Under the pieces are notes generated by a model, which was not told the origin of the DNA, ran no database searches, and saw only the letters and a program-made list of their open reading frames with translations. A stretch of 64,000 bases of DNA from Mitsuaria sp. GD03876 (GTDB taxonomy: Bacteria > Pseudomonadota > Gammaproteobacteria > Burkholderiales > Burkholderiaceae_C): the NCBI RefSeq assembly GCF_029840635.1, contig NZ_JAOCCU010000006.1, positions 1 through 64,000 of the forward strand. The letters are read 5' to 3'. Positions 48,243 through 55,881 of this stretch are shown one piece after another. The position numbers and the translations under genes are program-made. How positions within the stretch are numbered: position 1 is the first letter of the stretch; every line of letters starts with the position of its first letter.

Positions 48243-50219
48243 TCAGAGCGCCGCGCGGTCCAGGCGCGCCGCGAATTCCTCCGCCGGCAGGAACCCGATC
48301 GTGCGCGCCGCCGGCAGCTCGCGGCCGCTCGCGTCGAAGAACAGGATGCCCGGCGGGCCAAACAGCTGGAAGCGCTTGAGCAGCGCCTTGGCCTCGGCGC
48401 TGTTGGCGGTGACGTCGGCCTGCAGCAGCCGCGCCTGGCGCAGCCGCGCGGCGATCGCGGGATCGGCGAAGGTCAGGTGCTCCATCTCCTTGCAGGCGAC
48501 GCACCAGTCGGCGTAGAAATCCAGCATCACCGGCCGGTCCGTGGCCGCGAGCGCCGCGTCCAGCTGCGCGAGCGTGGTGATGCGCTCGAACGCGGGCGCG
48601 GTGGCGGGACGCGAGGCGGCCTCGGCGCTGGCCATCGGCAGGTCCGCGCCGGCGCCGCGCGCCAGGTGGCGCAGCGGCATCAGCACGCTGTCGCCGCCGG
48701 ACAGCGCCCCGCCGATCATCGCGACCGACCACAGCGCCACCAGCGCGCCGCCGGCCTTGAGCAGGCGCGGGCGGCCGGATTCGAAGGCGCCCAGGCAGAT
48801 CGCGGCGACCAGCGCGGCGGCGCCGATCAGGAACATCAGCACGCCGGTCGGCAGCACCGGCGAGACCAGCCACAGCGCCACCGCGATCAGCACCAGGCCG
48901 AAGAAGGTCTTGACGTGCTCCATCCAGCGGCCGGCGCGCGGCAGCAGCGTGCCGGCGGACAGGCCCAGCAGCAGCAGCGGCACGCTCATGCCGCAGGCCA
49001 GCGCGAACAGCGCGGAGCCGCCCAGCACCACGTCGCGGGTCTGGCTGATGTAGACCAGCGCGCCGGCCAGCGGCGCGGCCACGCAAGGACCGACCAGCAG
49101 CGCCGACAGGCCGCCCATCAGGAACACGCCCACATGGCGGCCGCCCTTCAGGCGGTTGGAGGCGTTGTTGACGCGCTCCTGGATGAAACCGGGCATCTGG
49201 AATTCCCAGACGCCGAACATCGACAGCGCGAGCGTGGACAGCAGCAGCGCGAAGGCGCCCAGCACCCAGGGGTTCTGCAACGCCGCGGCGAAACCCGCGC
49301 CGAGCAGGCCGGCGACGATGCCCGCGGCGGTGTAGACCGTCGCCATGCCCATCGAGTACGCCAGCGCCAGCGTGAAGCCGCGCGAGCGCGAGACCGGTGC
49401 GCCCTGGCCCACGATGATCGACGACAGGATCGGGAGCATCGGCAGCACGCAGGGCGTGAAGGACAGCAGCAGGCCGCCGAGCAGGAACATGCCCAGCACG
49501 CGCAGCAGGTTGCCGGACTGGAGCGCGGCGGCGCTGCGGTCGACCGGGGCGGCGTCGGTGGCGGTGGCGGTGGAGGGGGCGGCGGAGGCGGCCGTCGTCG
49601 AGCTTGTCGTCGCGGCCGTGGCCGATGTGCTCGACGACCCCGATGCCGGCGCGGCCCTCGAGCCCGTGGCCGCCGTCGCCGCGGCTTTCGGCGCCTCGTC
49701 GATCGGCGCGGACAGCGCGTCCGGTTGCGCTTCCCATCGCGCCTTCAGCAGACCGTCGCCGCCGCGTTCCAGGTGCACCAGCGCCTGCTGCGGCGGATAG
49801 CAGAGCCCGCGATCGGCGCAGCCCTGGTAGCGCACCGTCAGCGTCGCGGGCACCGGTCCGGCCGGCAGCGGCTGCACGACGCGGATCGCGCCGGCCCACA
49901 GCGTCATCGTCTTGTTGAAGTTCGGGTCGAACTCCGCCTTGCCGGCAGGCAACGACGGCGCGGGCAACGCCGCGCCGCCGGACTCGATGGCGAAGCGCTC
50001 GCGGTACAGGTGATAGCCGCGCGCGACGTCGAACGCGATGACCAGCGGCCCGGGCGTCCGAGCGCCGGGCGCGGCGTCCTCCAGGCGCGCCTGGCCGGCG
50101 AAGGCCTGCGCGGGGTCGAGGAAGGCGGGGTCGTCCGCGGCACGGGCCGCGCCCGGCGCGCCGATCGTCAGCGCGAGCGCGGTCGCGGCGCCGGCGAGGA
50201 AGGAGGCGAGGAGTCTCAT
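48243..50219 (-). CDS. dsbD: thiol:disulfide interchange protein DsbD
   Basis: Predicted 658 residues with three domains. After a signal peptide the N-terminal DsbDalpha domain carries the Cys pair of GCADRGLCYPP. The central membrane domain has eight segments with the redox cysteines FTPCVLP and VGPCVAAP. The C-terminal thioredoxin-like domain has WCVACK near residue 572. It relays electrons from cytoplasmic thioredoxin to periplasmic Dsb and cytochrome maturation proteins. The linker between domains 1 and 2 is long, Ser/Thr/Ala-rich. It is last in the MrtJ operon and overlaps apbE by 4 bases. The upstream fusion protein with cytochrome c and TlpA domains is a plausible client. Confidence 0.93.
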   Translation of the reverse strand: MRLLASFLAGAATALALTIGAPGAARAADDPAFLDPAQAFAGQARLEDAAPGARTPGPLVIAFDVARGYHLYRERFAIESGGAALPAPSLPAGKAEFDPNFNKTMTLWAGAIRVVQPLPAGPVPATLTVRYQGCADRGLCYPPQQALVHLERGGDGLLKARWEAQPDALSAPIDEAPKAAATAATGSRAAPASGSSSTSATAATTSSTTAASAAPSTATATDAAPVDRSAAALQSGNLLRVLGMFLLGGLLLSFTPCVLPMLPILSSIIVGQGAPVSRSRGFTLALAYSMGMATVYTAAGIVAGLLGAGFAAALQNPWVLGAFALLLSTLALSMFGVWEFQMPGFIQERVNNASNRLKGGRHVGVFLMGGLSALLVGPCVAAPLAGALVYISQTRDVVLGGSALFALACGMSVPLLLLGLSAGTLLPRAGRWMEHVKTFFGLVLIAVALWLVSPVLPTGVLMFLIGAAALVAAICLGAFESGRPRLLKAGGALVALWSVAMIGGALSGGDSVLMPLRHLARGAGADLPMASAEAASRPATAPAFERITTLAQLDAALAATDRPVMLDFYADWCVACKEMEHLTFADPAIAARLRQARLLQADVTANSAEAKALLKRFQLFGPPGILFFDASGRELPAARTIGFLPAEEFAARLDRAAL

Positions 50220-51142
50220 GGCGAAGGAGGAGGGTGGATCAATCGATCGAGGTCGTGCGTGCGGACCTGTCCGTCGGCGTCGACCAGCAGGAACCCGACG
50301 CCCGGCGTGCTCAGCCGCGACGGCGCGGACGCGCCGATCAGCATCGACATCGTGGCCAGCGCGCCGGCGGCGACGCACAACGGGGCCACGACGCTGACGG
50401 CCTGCCAGTGGCGGACCGGCTGGCCGGTGCGCGGATCGAGGATGTGGCAGCAGCGCCGGCCATCGGGGGCGATGAAGAAGCGTTCGTAGTCGCCGCTGGT
50501 GGCGAGCGCGCCTTCGCTCAAGGGGATGCGGGCGCAGACTTCGTCCTCGCGGCGCGGGTGCCGGACGGCGAAGACCCACGGCTGGTCGTCGGGACGCGGG
50601 CCGAGGACGCGCAGGTCGCCGCCGAGGTTCACGAAGCCATGCTTCAACCCGAGCGCCTGCAGCGCCGCGACCGCGCGGTCGGCGGCGTATTCCTTGCCGA
50701 TGCCGCCGAAGTCGATCTCCATGCCGCAGGCGGGCAGCGCGATCGCGCGGCCATCCCACTGCACGCGGTCCCAGCCGATGCGCGCGAGCACCACCGCCAG
50801 CGCGTCCGGCGAGGGCTCGCGCCCGGCCTTGAAGTCCCAGGCGCGGCGCAGGCAGCCGCTGGTGATGTCGAAGAGACCGTCGCTCTGGCGATGCAGCTCG
50901 GCGGCGAAGTCCAGCAGCTGCGCGGTCTCCGCGTCGACCGTCAGCCCGCCGCGACCGGCGCGCGTGTTGATCGCGGAGACGACGCTGTCCTCGCGGTAAC
51001 GCGAGTACTTCTGCTCGATGCGGCGGACCTCGGCCTCGACCGCGTCGAAGGCGTCCTCGGCGACCGCCGATGGCACGCCGCCGAGCACGACCTCGTTGGG
51101 CGAGGCCATCGCGGTGAAGGCGCGGCGGTGCACGGACCACAT
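50216..51142 (-). CDS. apbE: ApbE, FAD:protein FMN transferase
   Basis: Predicted 308 residues. The ApbE pattern is clear: EVRRIEQKYSRYREDSVVSA, SDGLFDITSGCLRRAWDFK, EIDFGGIGKEYAADRAV, HGFVNLGGDLRV, and the metal/flavin site ATSGDYERFF, DPRTGQPV and the conserved Ser/Thr-x-x-x-D near MLIGAS. It attaches FMN covalently to target proteins at the outer face of the inner membrane. No obvious signal peptide is seen. Which protein it modifies is not apparent; the DUF4266/DUF3570 and cytochrome-fusion gene products in this operon are candidates. Confidence 0.9.
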   Translation of the reverse strand: MWSVHRRAFTAMASPNEVVLGGVPSAVAEDAFDAVEAEVRRIEQKYSRYREDSVVSAINTRAGRGGLTVDAETAQLLDFAAELHRQSDGLFDITSGCLRRAWDFKAGREPSPDALAVVLARIGWDRVQWDGRAIALPACGMEIDFGGIGKEYAADRAVAALQALGLKHGFVNLGGDLRVLGPRPDDQPWVFAVRHPRREDEVCARIPLSEGALATSGDYERFFIAPDGRRCCHILDPRTGQPVRHWQAVSVVAPLCVAAGALATMSMLIGASAPSRLSTPGVGFLLVDADGQVRTHDLDRLIHPPPSP

Positions 51143-51155
51143 GGCGGACGACGCG

Positions 51156-52382
51156 TCAGAAACGATGCGACACGCCGACCTGCAGCCAGTCGGCCTGGAA
51201 GCGCGCCAACCCCGGCGAGCCGCTGCCGCCCAGGCGCCAGGCGGCGCGCTGCTCGTAGTGCTCGAGGCTGAGGTCGGCGGTCCAGCGGGGGGCGAACTCG
51301 TAGGCGACCTTCAGTCCGGCGGTGACCGCGCCGAAGGCGGACAGACGCTGGTCGGGCGACAGGAACTGCGGCGAGGTCGACGTGTAGCCCGGAGGGAACG
51401 GCGCGCCGAGCGCGGGGTCGTAGACCGGGTCGTAATAGAAGCTCGCCGCGCGCTGCGTCGTGTAGCGCAGCATCGGCGTCAGCGTCCAACCGCCGGCCAG
51501 CGGCTGCACCCAGGCGGCCTCCACCGTGTTGGCCCGCACGCCGAAGCTGTCGGCGTAGTAGCGCCAGCTGCCGCGCAACGTCGCCTTCCAGTCGGTGAAG
51601 TGATGGTTCCAGCGCGCCATCAGCGTGTACTGCTCGCGCCGGTCCGGGCGGCGGTCCGGGAACTTGTACGGGTCCGAGTACATGCCGTGACCCCAGCTCG
51701 CGCCGAGGTTCAGCTGCACCAGGTCCACCGGCGTCCATGCCTGCGTGACGCCGGCGATCAGCTGCGTGGTGTTGCGGCCGCGGCTGAGCGTCGGATCGTC
51801 GGAGGAACCGATCCAGTCGTCGCTGAAGGCGGCGCCGATGTTCCAGGTCGTGTTGTTGTCCTCGCTGGCGCGGCGGTAGTCGGCGGAGACGGTGCGGGAG
51901 CGGTAGTCGTGCTCGGTCGAGTAGGCCGCGCCGAGCGACCAGGCGTCGCGGTCGTTGTAGCGGGTCACGCGGACGTCGCCGGCCTTGCGGGTCTCCTCCA
52001 GGCGCGAGGCGCCGGAGACCGCGCTGTGATACCGCGGAGAGGCGCCGGAGACGCTGTCCGTCACCAGCGATCCTTCGACCGACCAGCGGCCGGCCACCGG
52101 CACCATCAGGTAGACCGACGGGGCGGTGACCTTGATGCGGTCGAAGCCGGGCTGGCGGTCGCGGTAGGACAGCAGCTTGACGGCCATCTCGGCCTGTTCG
52201 GGCGGCGTCTCCGCCTGCGCTGGGAGCTGCAGTCCCGGCAGCAGCAGCGCGGCGGCCAGCACGCCGCCCCAGGCGGCCGGGGTTGCCGCGGGGGTTGCCG
52301 CCGAAGTTGCGGCGGGCGTTGCGGTCGATGTCGCGGCGGGCGTCGCGGCGGGGGCCGCATCGTCGAGGTCAGTTGCAGCCAC
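51156..52382 (-). CDS. DUF3570 outer-membrane beta-barrel protein
   Basis: Predicted 408 residues from GTG 52382, which lies 7 bases after GGGAGGGG; GTG 52388 is too close to it. An export signal (WGGVLAAALLLPGLQLPAQA) follows an unusual tandem repeat of PAAT units (residues about 10-40). The rest alternates polar and aromatic residues and ends GVSHRF, as in outer-membrane barrels. DUF3570 proteins regularly occur next to DUF4266 lipoproteins, ApbE and TlpA-like proteins; function unknown. The start overlaps the DUF4266 stop by 14 bases. Confidence 0.85.
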   Translation of the reverse strand: MAATDLDDAAPAATPAATSTATPAATSAATPAATPAAWGGVLAAALLLPGLQLPAQAETPPEQAEMAVKLLSYRDRQPGFDRIKVTAPSVYLMVPVAGRWSVEGSLVTDSVSGASPRYHSAVSGASRLEETRKAGDVRVTRYNDRDAWSLGAAYSTEHDYRSRTVSADYRRASEDNNTTWNIGAAFSDDWIGSSDDPTLSRGRNTTQLIAGVTQAWTPVDLVQLNLGASWGHGMYSDPYKFPDRRPDRREQYTLMARWNHHFTDWKATLRGSWRYYADSFGVRANTVEAAWVQPLAGGWTLTPMLRYTTQRAASFYYDPVYDPALGAPFPPGYTSTSPQFLSPDQRLSAFGAVTAGLKVAYEFAPRWTADLSLEHYEQRAAWRLGGSGSPGLARFQADWLQVGVSHRF

Positions 52383-52629
52383 AGCCACCCCCTCCCACGC
52401 CGTTGCCGCCGGAGGCGTTCTCCTTGCTCGTGTAGATGTGCTGCGCGAAGCGGTCGCCCAGGACGTCACCGCCCATCGTCATCTCGGGACGGGCAAGGGC
52501 GCCCTTCTCCCACGGCTGCGGCGGCCGCATCGCGCAACCGGTGGCGGCGAACGCGATCAGCACGGTCGTCGCGAATGGAATGGCCCGGTCAATCGCCAGG
52601 TGGCGACGCGGCGTCGGGGGCAAGGACAT
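52369..52629 (-). CDS. DUF4266 small lipoprotein
   Basis: Predicted 86 residues. A short signal with lipobox-like AATGC is followed by PPQPWEKGALARPEM, then YTSKENASGGNGVGGGGCGCN at the C-terminus, the full DUF4266 signature. It should be anchored in the membrane by its N-terminal cysteine; the Gly/Cys-rich end could bind metal or another protein. Function unknown. DUF4266 almost always pairs with DUF3570, as here. Situated in the middle of the MrtJ-DsbD operon, it may be part of the same envelope complex. Confidence 0.9.
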   Translation of the reverse strand: MSLPPTPRRHLAIDRAIPFATTVLIAFAATGCAMRPPQPWEKGALARPEMTMGGDVLGDRFAQHIYTSKENASGGNGVGGGGCGCN

Positions 52630-52670: not shown

Positions 52671-55460
52671 TCATGGCGTCTTCAGCGCGGCGGCGATGCG
52701 AGCCTCGAGCGCGGACTCGTCCTCGGCACGGAAACCGGCGTGCTCCATCAGCACGCGACCGTCCGGACCGATCAGCACCGAACTCGGCATCGCCCGCACA
52801 CCCACCCGGCGGGCAGACTCCCCCTTCGGATCGAAGGCGAGCGCGACGGTGGCAGGCACCTCCTTCAGGAAGGCCTGCGCATCGGTCCGGCTCGCGTCCA
52901 GATTCACCGCGACGATGCGCAAACCCTGCGCGCCGTACTTCGCCTGCATCCGGTTCATCCAGGGGAACGACTGGCGGCACGGGCCGCACCAGGAGGCCCA
53001 GAAATCGACGTAGGTCAGCTTGGCCTTGCCGTCGTGCAACACCACCGGGGCGCCGTCGGGGCCAGGAACGGTCGACACGGCGAGCGGTTGGCCGACATCC
53101 GCCGCGTGGGCCGGGGAGGTGAACCACAGCAGGGTCGTGGCGGTGGCGAGCAGGACACCCACTGCGAGTCGCCAGGCGCGGGCTCTCCACGGGGCATGGG
53201 GCCTCCCTCCGGGAACCCCAAGCCCCATTCCGGCCCCAGCCGCACTCGCTGCCTGCACGTTGGACGACACGCTCGCTGCCCGCCCGTTGGACGACACGCT
53301 CGCTGCCTGCACGTTGGATGACACGCTCGCTGCCGGCTCGTTGAACGAGAAGCTCGTTGCCCGCGCGTCGCATGACACGCTTGCTGCTTGCCCGTTGAAC
53401 GAAGCGTTCGAGCGGGCGCGGCGCAGCCACAGGACCAGCCCCGAGAGCGCGGCCATCACCAGCAGCAACGGATCCGCCGCGCCAGTGCCCGAGCCGATCG
53501 TGCAGCCGCCGCCACCGCTGTTGGACATGCCGTTGTTGCCCGCCGAGCCATTCAGCGTCACCGTCGCCGTCGCGGGCGTCATGTCGCCCTGCAGCGTCAA
53601 CACGCCGGTCTCGGTGCCCGCGGGGGCCGAGGCCGCCGCGCCGGCACCCAGCCAGCGCAGCGTGATCTGGCAGCTCGCGCCCGGTTGGACGGCGAACGGT
53701 GCCGCGCCGCAGGCATTGGCGCCGCCGGTGTCGATCGAGAAGCGCGCGCTGTTCAGCGCCAGCGCGCTGATGTGCAGCACGCCCTGGCCGCTGTTGGTCA
53801 GCGTCAGCGGGCGGCCGGCCGTGTCGGTCGGGCTGAAGTCGAGCGTGGCCGCGGACAGCTGCAGCGCCGGCTGCGGCGCCGCGCGGCCGACACCAGTCAG
53901 CGTCAGCGGCGCCGGCAGCGACGCGTTGTTGGCGACGACCGCGGCCGTGGCGGCCCGCGTGCCGACCGCGCGCGGGCTGAAGCCGATCGCCAGGTCGCAG
54001 CTGGCGCCGACGGCCAGCGACGCGCCGGCAGCGCAGGTGGAGCTGGTGTCGACGCGGTAATCGGCCGCGGCATCGCCCGCCAGCGCGAAGCTGCCGAGCG
54101 TCGCGCTCACGTCGCCGGTGTTGCTCAGCGTGAAGTGCTTGAGGCCGCCGTCGTCGCCGACGGTGACGGTGCCGAAGTCGGCCGTCGCGGCGGCGCTCCA
54201 GACCAGGATCGGCGTGTTGGCCAGGACGCCGGTGCCGCTCAGGGCGACGGCCTGCGGCGATCCGGCCGCGTTGCTGGCCAGGCTCAGCGAGCCGGTCGCG
54301 GCGCCGGCCCCCGTCGGCACGAAGCTGACGTTGACGGTGCAGCTGCCGCCTGCGGGAACGCCGCCGCCGCAGTTGTCGGTGCTGGTGAAGGCGCCGCTCG
54401 CGGCGATGGCGCTGAAGGTGAGGGCGGCGTTGCCGGAGTTGGTGATCGTCACCGTCTGCGCGGCGCTGGTGCGGCCGACGGTCAGCGCGCCGAAGGCGAG
54501 GCTCGTCGTCGACAGCGTGGAGATCGGTGCCGGCGCGGTCTGGCCGGAGCCGCTCATTGCGATGTTGACGTTGGCGGTGGCGTTGTTGGCCGTGGGCGCG
54601 GTGGCGGCGACGGCCAGCGTGGCGGCGCGCCCGCCGGCCGCTGCCGGGGTGAAGGTCGCGGTGACGGTGCAGGTGGCGCCGACGGCCAGCGGCGTGCCGA
54701 CGGCGCAACTGCCACCGCGGCTGAAGTCGCCGGCATTGGCGCCGGTGACGCCGAGGCTGCCGAAGTCCAGCGGGGCCGTGCCGGTGTTGGTGAGGGTGAC
54801 GGTGCGCGCGGCGGAGGCGCTGCCGATGGGCTGGGCGCCGAAGTCGATCGTCGAGGCGTCGGCCGACAGGCCCGCGGTGAGGGTGACGTTGGCGGTGCCG
54901 CTGAGCGCGATCGGGATCGGCGTGGAGATGCCGTTGTGGTTGATCGTCAGCGCGCCGTTACGGGTGCCGGAGGCGGTCGGGCGGAAGACGACACCGACGG
55001 TGCAGCTGGTGCCCGCGGGCACGCTGGCGCCGCAGCTGCCGCCCTGGACGGCGAAGTCGCCGCTGGCGGCGGCGGTGAGACTGGCCAGGGCCGCGAGGCG
55101 GCTGGCGCTGATGGTGATCGTCGAGACGGCGCTGGTCTGGCCGACCGGGGTCTGCGCGAAGCTGATCGAGGCCGGCGAGTTGCCGAGGTAGGCGGCGATG
55201 TCGGCGAGGTCCGAGGCGTTGAACACGCCGCCGACGGAGCTCATCTGCGGGATGGTGTTGATCGCGTTCTGGATCATCGCGGGGTTGTTGCGGCCGCGGT
55301 CGACGACGGTGGTGGAGGCCACCGTGTGGCAGGCGGCGCAGACCTGCGAGAACTTGGACTGGCCGGCGATCGGGTCGGCCGCGAAGGCAGGCCCGGCCAG
55401 GACCGCGGCGGCGAGCGCGGCGATCGCGCCGGGGACGGCGGAGCGGGGAAGGAGGGTCAT
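52671..55460 (-). CDS. fusion: cytochrome c, choice-of-anchor D repeats, JDVT-CTERM, TlpA-like thioredoxin
   Basis: Predicted 929 residues in one uninterrupted frame. Order: signal peptide (1-28); class I cytochrome c with CAACH (41-45); about five immunoglobulin-like choice-of-anchor-D/ASPM-SPD2-HYDIN repeats (100-635); a JDVT-CTERM sorting signal (GGGGCTIGSG, hydrophobic helix, RRAR, about 645-680); a linker of six 9-residue repeats (about 683-737); a second membrane segment (about 755-780); and a TlpA/ResA-type thioredoxin domain with WASWCGPC near 823. JDVT-CTERM is normally the last 30 residues of a protein. Its peptidase MrtJ is encoded immediately upstream, so cleavage within this protein would separate the halves. 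An alternative start at 53228 would give a free TlpA. Confidence 0.8.
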   Translation of the reverse strand: MTLLPRSAVPGAIAALAAAVLAGPAFAADPIAGQSKFSQVCAACHTVASTTVVDRGRNNPAMIQNAINTIPQMSSVGGVFNASDLADIAAYLGNSPASISFAQTPVGQTSAVSTITISASRLAALASLTAAASGDFAVQGGSCGASVPAGTSCTVGVVFRPTASGTRNGALTINHNGISTPIPIALSGTANVTLTAGLSADASTIDFGAQPIGSASAARTVTLTNTGTAPLDFGSLGVTGANAGDFSRGGSCAVGTPLAVGATCTVTATFTPAAAGGRAATLAVAATAPTANNATANVNIAMSGSGQTAPAPISTLSTTSLAFGALTVGRTSAAQTVTITNSGNAALTFSAIAASGAFTSTDNCGGGVPAGGSCTVNVSFVPTGAGAATGSLSLASNAAGSPQAVALSGTGVLANTPILVWSAAATADFGTVTVGDDGGLKHFTLSNTGDVSATLGSFALAGDAAADYRVDTSSTCAAGASLAVGASCDLAIGFSPRAVGTRAATAAVVANNASLPAPLTLTGVGRAAPQPALQLSAATLDFSPTDTAGRPLTLTNSGQGVLHISALALNSARFSIDTGGANACGAAPFAVQPGASCQITLRWLGAGAAASAPAGTETGVLTLQGDMTPATATVTLNGSAGNNGMSNSGGGGCTIGSGTGAADPLLLVMAALSGLVLWLRRARSNASFNGQAASVSCDARATSFSFNEPAASVSSNVQAASVSSNGRAASVSSNVQAASAAGAGMGLGVPGGRPHAPWRARAWRLAVGVLLATATTLLWFTSPAHAADVGQPLAVSTVPGPDGAPVVLHDGKAKLTYVDFWASWCGPCRQSFPWMNRMQAKYGAQGLRIVAVNLDASRTDAQAFLKEVPATVALAFDPKGESARRVGVRAMPSSVLIGPDGRVLMEHAGFRAEDESALEARIAAALKTP
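53251..53412 (-). repeat. 27-bp coding tandem repeat (six units)
   Basis: Six contiguous 27-bp units (53251, 53278, 53305, 53332, 53359, 53386) encode 9-residue repeats of the type ASVSSNVQA. Three units are almost identical; three are diverged. The array forms the linker between the JDVT-CTERM signal and the TlpA domain, and because 27 is a multiple of three, expansion or contraction keeps the frame. Confidence 0.85.
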
Positions 55461-55473
55461 GGCGCGTGCCTCG

Positions 55474-55881
55474 TCAAGGGGAAGAGAGAAGCGGAAGGAG
55501 CGCGGGCGCGGCGAACCACAGCCAGCAGGCGTTGAAGGCGGCATGCCAGGCGATGCAGCGCGGCAGCGAGCGATGCCGCCGGTAGCCGCGGCCGATCCAC
55601 CAGGCCGGCACGGCGGTGGCCAGCGCGAGCAGCAGCAGGACGGGCAACGGCGTTGAACCGGTGATGCCGGTGAGGGCAGCGGCGGCGATCACGAACGCAT
55701 GCGCGAGGCCGAAGGCCACGGCGGTCCACGCGACGGCATGGCGTCGCAGCGCGCCGATGCGCGAGGCGTGCAGCCAGTCCTGCAGGCCGAGGCGGAAGAG
55801 GATCTCTTCCGCGCAGGGCGCGAGCAGGAGTTGCCGGAGCAAGACGTCCCAGGGCACCGGGACGAGGACGAAAGGCGGCAT
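55474..55881 (-). CDS. mrtJ: MrtJ, JDVT-CTERM-specific intramembrane protease
   Basis: Predicted 135-residue CPBP/CAAX-type glutamic protease with several membrane segments. The catalytic Glu pair is at residues 25-26 (CAEEILFRLGLQ), with His61 (GLAHAF) and the second His/Asn block HAAFNACW (H113, N117). The family member dedicated to JDVT-CTERM proteins is called MrtJ and is encoded beside its substrate; here the substrate gene starts 13 bp downstream. It is the first gene of the six-gene leftward operon. An upstream start would lengthen it, but MPPFVLVPVPWDVLL is a reasonable N-terminus. Confidence 0.85.
   Translation of the reverse strand: MPPFVLVPVPWDVLLRQLLLAPCAEEILFRLGLQDWLHASRIGALRRHAVAWTAVAFGLAHAFVIAAAALTGITGSTPLPVLLLLALATAVPAWWIGRGYRRHRSLPRCIAWHAAFNACWLWFAAPALLPLLSSP

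Follow-up and report, generated by a model that had tools for sequence, protein, structure and literature searches.

A JDVT-CTERM sorting signal inside a cytochrome c/TlpA fusion of Mitsuaria, a candidate preprotein for two envelope redox proteins

We examined a stretch of 64,000 nucleotides from Mitsuaria sp. GD03876 (contig NZ_JAOCCU010000006.1, positions 1 to 64,000; here called the window), in which a single gene on the minus strand (52671..55460) encodes a secreted cytochrome c/choice-of-anchor D (immunoglobulin (Ig)-like) protein, a JDVT-CTERM sorting signal, a second signal-peptide-like helix and a TlpA-type thioredoxin as one uninterrupted frame of 929 amino acids plus stop. A preliminary description of the DNA had noticed a JDVT-CTERM signal in mid-protein, and this observation is confirmed. 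On the strength of sequence comparisons we think it rather probable that the product is a preprotein, which the protease MrtJ would cut at the JDVT signal and signal peptidase I at the internal signal peptide, yielding two proteins in a 1:1 ratio. Support for this reading comes from the recurrence of the fusion, a junction devoid of start codons in one relative, ratios of nonsynonymous to synonymous substitution (dN/dS), positively charged loops between the helices, a conserved A-x-A motif, an MrtJ-like gene directly upstream in all eight orthologue-bearing members of the genus, barrel fusions elsewhere that carry an internal JDVT signal, and the cleavage reported for HVO_0405.

The sorting signal occupies residues 648-683 (53412..53519, minus strand) and not the residues 645-680 first proposed. 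It matches NF033191 with 36.0 bits against a cut-off of 27 in a protein scan and with 42.6 bits in a genome search, and shows the invariant cysteine (Cys 653), a hydrophobic window from residue 661 and then LRRAR. Of seven NF033191 matches at E up to 1 across the 6.36-Mb genome, this is the sole one above the cut-off. The C-terminal position expected by NF033191 does not apply here, as 246 residues come after the match. Residues 1-92 (55185..55460, minus strand) comprise an N-terminal signal-peptide-like stretch and a CxxCH cytochrome c region, with a marginal match to PF13442 in a Pfam scan (27.6 bits against a cut-off of 27, residues 31-92) and a CxxCH motif that is invariant across the six aligned fusions described below; family scans place five choice-of-anchor D Ig-like stretches between this region and the JDVT signal. 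On the other side of the signal, hydropathy delimits a second, signal-peptide-like helix at residues 765-786 (53103..53168, minus strand), where the junction with the thioredoxin reads SPAHA followed by AD. The TlpA/ResA-type domain that follows (52674..53102, minus strand; residues ~785-926) is complete, as had been claimed, with WCGPC and 59.8 bits to PF08534 against a cut-off of 26.6, although in the protein scan it scored under all three cut-offs of the specific ResA, DsbE and TlpA models. The preliminary description spoke of a second membrane segment and a membrane-tethered thioredoxin. The segment is indeed a hydrophobic helix, but it resembles a cleavable signal peptide no less than an anchor, and because A-x-A is kept before the TlpA domain in six of six fusions, tethering is no more likely than release by signal peptidase I; from the sequences we regard this cut as likely for the TlpA fusions.

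Directly upstream of the fused gene lies a gene for an MrtJ-like CPBP glutamic intramembrane protease (55474..55881, minus strand), which thus adjoins the single JDVT-CTERM protein of this genome. On the reading we favor, the first half would be exported via its own signal peptide until the JDVT helix halts it in the inner membrane; the cytoplasmic tail of the JDVT signal, rich in Arg, would double as the positive n-region of the second helix and so bring about export of the TlpA half; the result would be a hairpin of two helices whose ends both lie in the periplasm. The inter-helix loops of the six fusions measure 87, 84, 53, 13, 15 and 5 amino acids, and K+R exceeds D+E in each. A cut by MrtJ at the JDVT cysteine would send the cytochrome/Ig half, presumably lipidated, to the surface, and signal peptidase I, probably cutting at the conserved A-x-A, would free the thioredoxin, with a small hairpin left behind. 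In this way one flavin/thiol electron-transfer cluster would obtain two of its redox proteins 1:1 from what may once have been adjacent genes, sometimes overlapping by four bases, whose intervening stop was lost.

A search covered 16 members of the genus including the window's own genome (G000), eight of which hold the orthologue. Five carry it fused in one frame (G000, G002, G006, G007 and G011). In the other three, G003 (on two contigs), G010 and G013, the frame stops behind the JDVT signal and tlpA is a gene of its own. The same fusion was found in G106, a one-contig genome from another genus of the family; its tail shares 49% identity with the G002 tail, and the two helices lie five residues apart (17-residue hydropathy windows). 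Of seven other searched members of the genus of G106, four gave matches at E up to 1e-20, with no single match spanning both halves. The occurrence of this architecture in five species of one genus and a genome of another supports a true fusion, and the open junction recurring in other genomes rules out sequencing error as a general explanation. A missed stop or frameshift in the window itself, to which the 27-bp repeats at the G000 junction might have predisposed, is very improbable, since the junction is also open in G006 and G007, in which no repeat array was found, and in the tight fusions of G002, G011 and the single-contig G106. Two side observations concern these genomes. G001 has a divergent cytochrome/Ig relative (L031, open reading frame from 1393; 38% over residues 18-290) with a JDVT-like signal, then another helix and ~90 residues without a visible thioredoxin motif. 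G106 contains four JDVT-CTERM proteins and two above-cut-off MrtJ genes (L076 and elsewhere), unlike one-protease, one-target pairs.

Relatives with a separate tlpA, which the preliminary description had proposed to look for, exist in G003, G010, G013 and beyond the genus. A profile of the fused tail had matches at E up to 1e-25 in 74 of 399 family genomes (best six candidates per genome), and among the same candidates only G000, G006 and G106 gave uninterrupted JDVT-to-TlpA matches; a further uninterrupted match to this profile, starting early (G105:C116), was rejected as an ordinary TlpA without JDVT signal. When 30 of 47 family JDVT matches were examined, the fusions of G000 and G106 included, 12 had a thioredoxin motif 170-250 bases past the start of the JDVT stop. 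Spacing was resolved at 16 of 17 split loci; in four of them, and possibly in a fifth, the JDVT stop and the start of tlpA overlap as ATGA. In Duganella sp. 1411 a JDVT end is followed by tlpA as a distinct gene, and in a Burkholderiales metagenome-assembled genome the thioredoxin frame is separate and the JDVT end not resolved. Scanning of contigs with generic thioredoxin patterns gave 80 loci, two of which (L090 and L092) also matched the cytochrome half. A four-base overlap is reported, in the accessible part of the source, for the Myxococcus traA and traB genes (PMC3325183). Given the ATGA overlaps in split relatives, the fusion looks like a further step beyond coupled neighboring genes.

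Phylogeny bears on how often this step was taken. In a TlpA tree, which holds 16 of the 24 rows tried, the other eight having been lost to an extraction filter, the genus rows form one clade that excludes G106 (98/96), and the fused and split states require three changes, with 23 of 500 shuffles as low; one branch was starred. Fused and split states interleave within the genus. By hand count, if a split ancestor and an event shared by G003 and G013 are assumed, three fusions or one fusion plus two splits are equally short, and a single origin of all fusions is no more than possible.

We also followed 151 distinct JDVT-CTERM matches (E up to 1e-4) in wider samples: 47 from 299 family genomes, 25 from 399 order genomes and 79 more, made up of 76 from 369 class genomes and the three remaining from the order search. 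As at most 18-25 candidates were scored per genome, there are at least this many matches; some score under the curated threshold, and in one the signal is interrupted by a stop. In 145 of the 151 the protein ends within 69 amino acids of the start of the signal. The other six signals are internal, two of them leading into TlpA (G000 and G106) and three into an OmpA-like barrel, with one cut by a contig end. In the last four (G977, G1010, G943 and G874; L339, L340, L341 and L342) the internal signal scores 31.8-35.0 bits and precedes a second signal-peptide-like helix across a positive loop of 8-22 amino acids (10-22 in the three barrel fusions, 8 in the contig-cut case). In G1010, G943 and G874 the second helix is followed by an OmpA-type barrel and an OmpA domain, both identified by Pfam, the frame of G943 being open at its N-terminal end, where the contig ends; the JDVT scores of these three come from the genome search, and the JDVT model is not among the best 25 NCBIfam matches listed for them. 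G977 runs off its contig, has no Pfam barrel there and resembles the barrel fusions by eye only. All four genomes contain an above-cut-off MrtJ, each on a different contig from the fusion. An OmpA-like barrel must leave the inner membrane to work, so a second cut is hard to avoid in the barrel fusions unless an internal start is used. Whether JDVT signals have repeatedly become internal processing sites, at which MrtJ and signal peptidase I would release two envelope proteins in a fixed 1:1 ratio, seems to us evenly balanced; this broader proposal takes in the shared positive loop (down to five residues), at least two kinds of partner (TlpA and an OmpA-like barrel) and the fused and split states within one genus.

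We calculated pairwise dN/dS for five pairs of fusions that share genomes, and the values are rough, as the JDVT stretch has only 32-34 codons and some dS values are high. The ratio was 0.09-0.29 for the JDVT signal and 0.11-0.27 for the thioredoxin; the N-terminal part gave 0.14-0.45, the linker together with the second helix 0.44-0.98, and the thioredoxin of the split pair G013/G003 0.29. The JDVT signal and TlpA are under purifying selection, and the linker is relaxed. These values bear on the alternative that the JDVT signal stays uncut and that cytochrome and thioredoxin remain joined in a stable bifunctional membrane protein, a redox protein anchored by the hairpin. The predicted topology would permit this, and both halves belong to one redox cluster. 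Yet such a protein gives no ready account of the selection on the JDVT signal in the fusions, of the MrtJ-like gene adjoining in fused and split species alike or of the A-x-A in every fusion, and a permanent inner-membrane anchor is hard to square with the barrel fusions, which leads us to consider this alternative decidedly improbable.

Several observations weigh against processing by MrtJ and signal peptidase I. The preliminary description named MrtJ as encoded upstream; its position and the intact EExxxR, FxxxH and HxxxN motifs of the aligned protein bear this out, but its NF033192 score of 60.2 bits is under the cut-off of 75. In a genome search the gene appears only as two pieces (34.5 and 30.3 bits) and is outscored by another CPBP gene of the genome (C50; 51.5 bits). 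None of the 16 genus members' genomes has an NF033192 match above the cut-off, and below-cut-off matches occur in 11 of 14 control genomes. The low score and this background mean that the MrtJ name leans on position and motifs as much as on score, the position being conserved directly upstream in eight of eight orthologue-bearing genus members. The nearest listed mrtJ of G106 is ~6.7 kb away from its fusion. The helices of the fusions and of the barrel-type cases were assigned from hydropathy, and a literature search that lacked the primary JDVT paper found no cleavage data for JDVT-CTERM proteins. In trees of the longer protein two state changes suffice and 500 of 500 shuffles are as low, so the fused label does not cluster beyond shuffles and fusion therefore appears to come and go. 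Finally, in-frame starts are present at many of the junctions, which we scanned for ATG, GTG and TTG. G000 (ATG 745), G006, G007 and G011 (GTG 706) have an internal start before the second helix together with a usable signal peptide, so separate synthesis of TlpA is possible there, and all four barrel-type cases have an ATG, GTG or TTG in frame near the junction.

The last point raises the possibility that these are two genes in practice, with tlpA keeping its internal start, read-through being minor or without effect and the lost stop representing tolerated drift. The closeness of stop and start in split relatives, within a few bases and in some cases overlapping as ATGA, fits this explanation, as does the interleaving of the two states in the genus. 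It is nevertheless unlikely in our judgment. Codons 671-718 of G002, which connect the JDVT helix with the mature thioredoxin, have no in-frame ATG, GTG or TTG, the nearest earlier ATG lying inside the JDVT helix, and the last possible start before the mature thioredoxin of G106 is a GTG within that helix. Moreover, the frame is maintained across linkers of 24 to 103 amino acids in five species, and by eye there is no clear Shine-Dalgarno sequence ahead of ATG 745.

The linker of G000 contains two distinct kinds of sequence. The first consists of the tandem nine-codon repeats that had been reported as six copies; Tandem Repeats Finder counts 5.9 copies of a 27-bp unit with 79% matches (53245..53402, minus strand). 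At the junctions of G006 and G007 the same program found no array, and none was seen by eye at those of G002, G011 and G106. The repeats have expanded locally within the linker and, because no array was found or seen in the other fusions, they are not part of the mechanism. A functional role was considered and lacks support, as a DNA search with 53240-53420 returned only the self-match and the 21-base repeat core occurs three times in the array and once elsewhere with three mismatches, against two matches for a reversed-pattern control. The second is a dispersed palindromic element resembling repetitive extragenic palindromic (REP) sequences, at 53165..53253 (minus strand, ends approximate and set by eye). 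At the protein level this part of the linker (residues 719-799) matches 13 other places in the genome. Their interpretation as copies of the 27-bp repeat was rejected, since in the five read (L003, L005, L006, L007 and L008) the common part is the REP-like element that comes after the repeats, and two of these have a TGA in the frame of the linker. The element folds somewhat better than shuffled sequences (z -2.2; 3 of 200 shuffles equally good). It is present at the same site in the linkers of G006 and G007, and therefore probably entered before these species and G000 diverged. It is roughly 75-90 bp long, and protein-level matches suggest that other genus members have it too. The linker plus second helix measures 102, 103, 70, 25 and 24 amino acids in the five genus fusions.

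Four genes downstream of the fused gene, all on the minus strand, look like part of a flavinylation cluster. These encode a small DUF4266-like protein with a C-terminal CxC (52369..52629), recognized from its translation by this end and by likeness to the description in PMC8238504 only; a DUF3570 protein (51156..52469; PF12094, 192 bits) with two SGAS flavinylation-like motifs; an ApbE FMN transferase (50216..51142; PF02424, 251 bits); and a DsbD thiol:disulfide reductase (48243..50303; NF001419, 551 bits against a cut-off of 330). The listed start of the DUF3570 frame falls inside the DUF4266-like gene, and the true start is probably further downstream. Together with the thioredoxin these genes resemble the DsbD/thioredoxin-like/DUF4266/DUF3570/ApbE clusters which, in the portion of PMC8238504 available to us, are described as hybrid electron-transfer systems, combining thioredoxin and flavinylation, to which DsbD may pass electrons. 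The locus differs from those clusters, as far as they are described there, in the added cytochrome/Ig surface protein, the MrtJ-like gene and the fusion of the thioredoxin to the cytochrome. Since the neighbors resemble an electron-transfer cluster, both halves of the fused gene plausibly serve one pathway.

If processed as proposed, the fused gene would give the JDVT/MrtJ system a substrate whose products are far from the precursor in size, so that cleavage could be read from a simple blot, as HVO_0405 allowed for an archaeosortase (PMC7157517, in the part available). The natural pairs of fused and split orthologues within one genus offer a direct route to asking what benefit a fixed 1:1 ratio or co-insertion may bring. 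The recurrence of internal JDVT signals with a second kind of partner suggests that annotation should not restrict such signals to protein ends.

Among known systems, the fused gene shares with HVO_0405 and MXAN_5598 a sorting signal placed inside a fusion of two exported proteins. In view of these precedents and of midcut-by-XrtH, the novel use of a sorting signal claimed in the preliminary description was put too strongly. For MXAN_5598 of Myxococcus xanthus, which has an internal MYXO-CTERM, the authors suggest gene fusion and propose processing (PMC11980579, as far as available). There too an adhesin-like half is followed by an internal, Cys-containing myxosortase-type signal and then by a second envelope protein. 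The signal and protease are MYXO-CTERM and MrtX instead of JDVT and MrtJ, however, and the C-terminal partner is an outer-membrane barrel with OmpA domains, so that on the available account it is matched closely by the JDVT-barrel fusions, and the TlpA fusions have a redox enzyme in place of the barrel. HVO_0405 of Haloferax volcanii is likewise a fusion of two once independent genes with the sorting signal in mid-protein, and its central archaeosortase site is cut in vivo in the parent strain and left uncut in pathway mutants (PMC7157517), so a central sorting signal can be cleaved. It differs, from what the accessible text tells, in being archaeal, in carrying an ArtA signal and in being called strain-specific, whereas the TlpA fusion recurs across several species. 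MrtJ with a single JDVT-CTERM protein is known as a two-gene neighborhood (Haft 2024, as cited in the part of PMC11980579 available to us). The window shows the same protease family and signal, with one target adjoining the protease, but here the signal is internal and a second exported enzyme follows.

A further likeness, by name, is to the NCBIfam family NF033207, midcut-by-XrtH, which denotes a protein cut mid-way by a sorting protease, in that case the exosortase XrtH. The NF033207 matches in G002 and G011 score 19.6 and 24.0 bits against a cut-off of 45 and lie in the Ig-like region rather than at the sorting signal, and our literature search found no paper on this family. The cytochrome b/c1 preprotein encoded by Bradyrhizobium fbcH is made as a single chain, which cleavage at an internal signal peptide divides into two redox proteins of the envelope; it differs from the fused gene in having neither a C-terminal sorting signal nor a sortase-like protease. 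The literature search, which did not reach the primary JDVT paper and saw other sources in part, found no mention of an internal JDVT signal. Sorting signals in mid-protein are already known from these other systems, and the internal JDVT-CTERM with TlpA is a new form of them.

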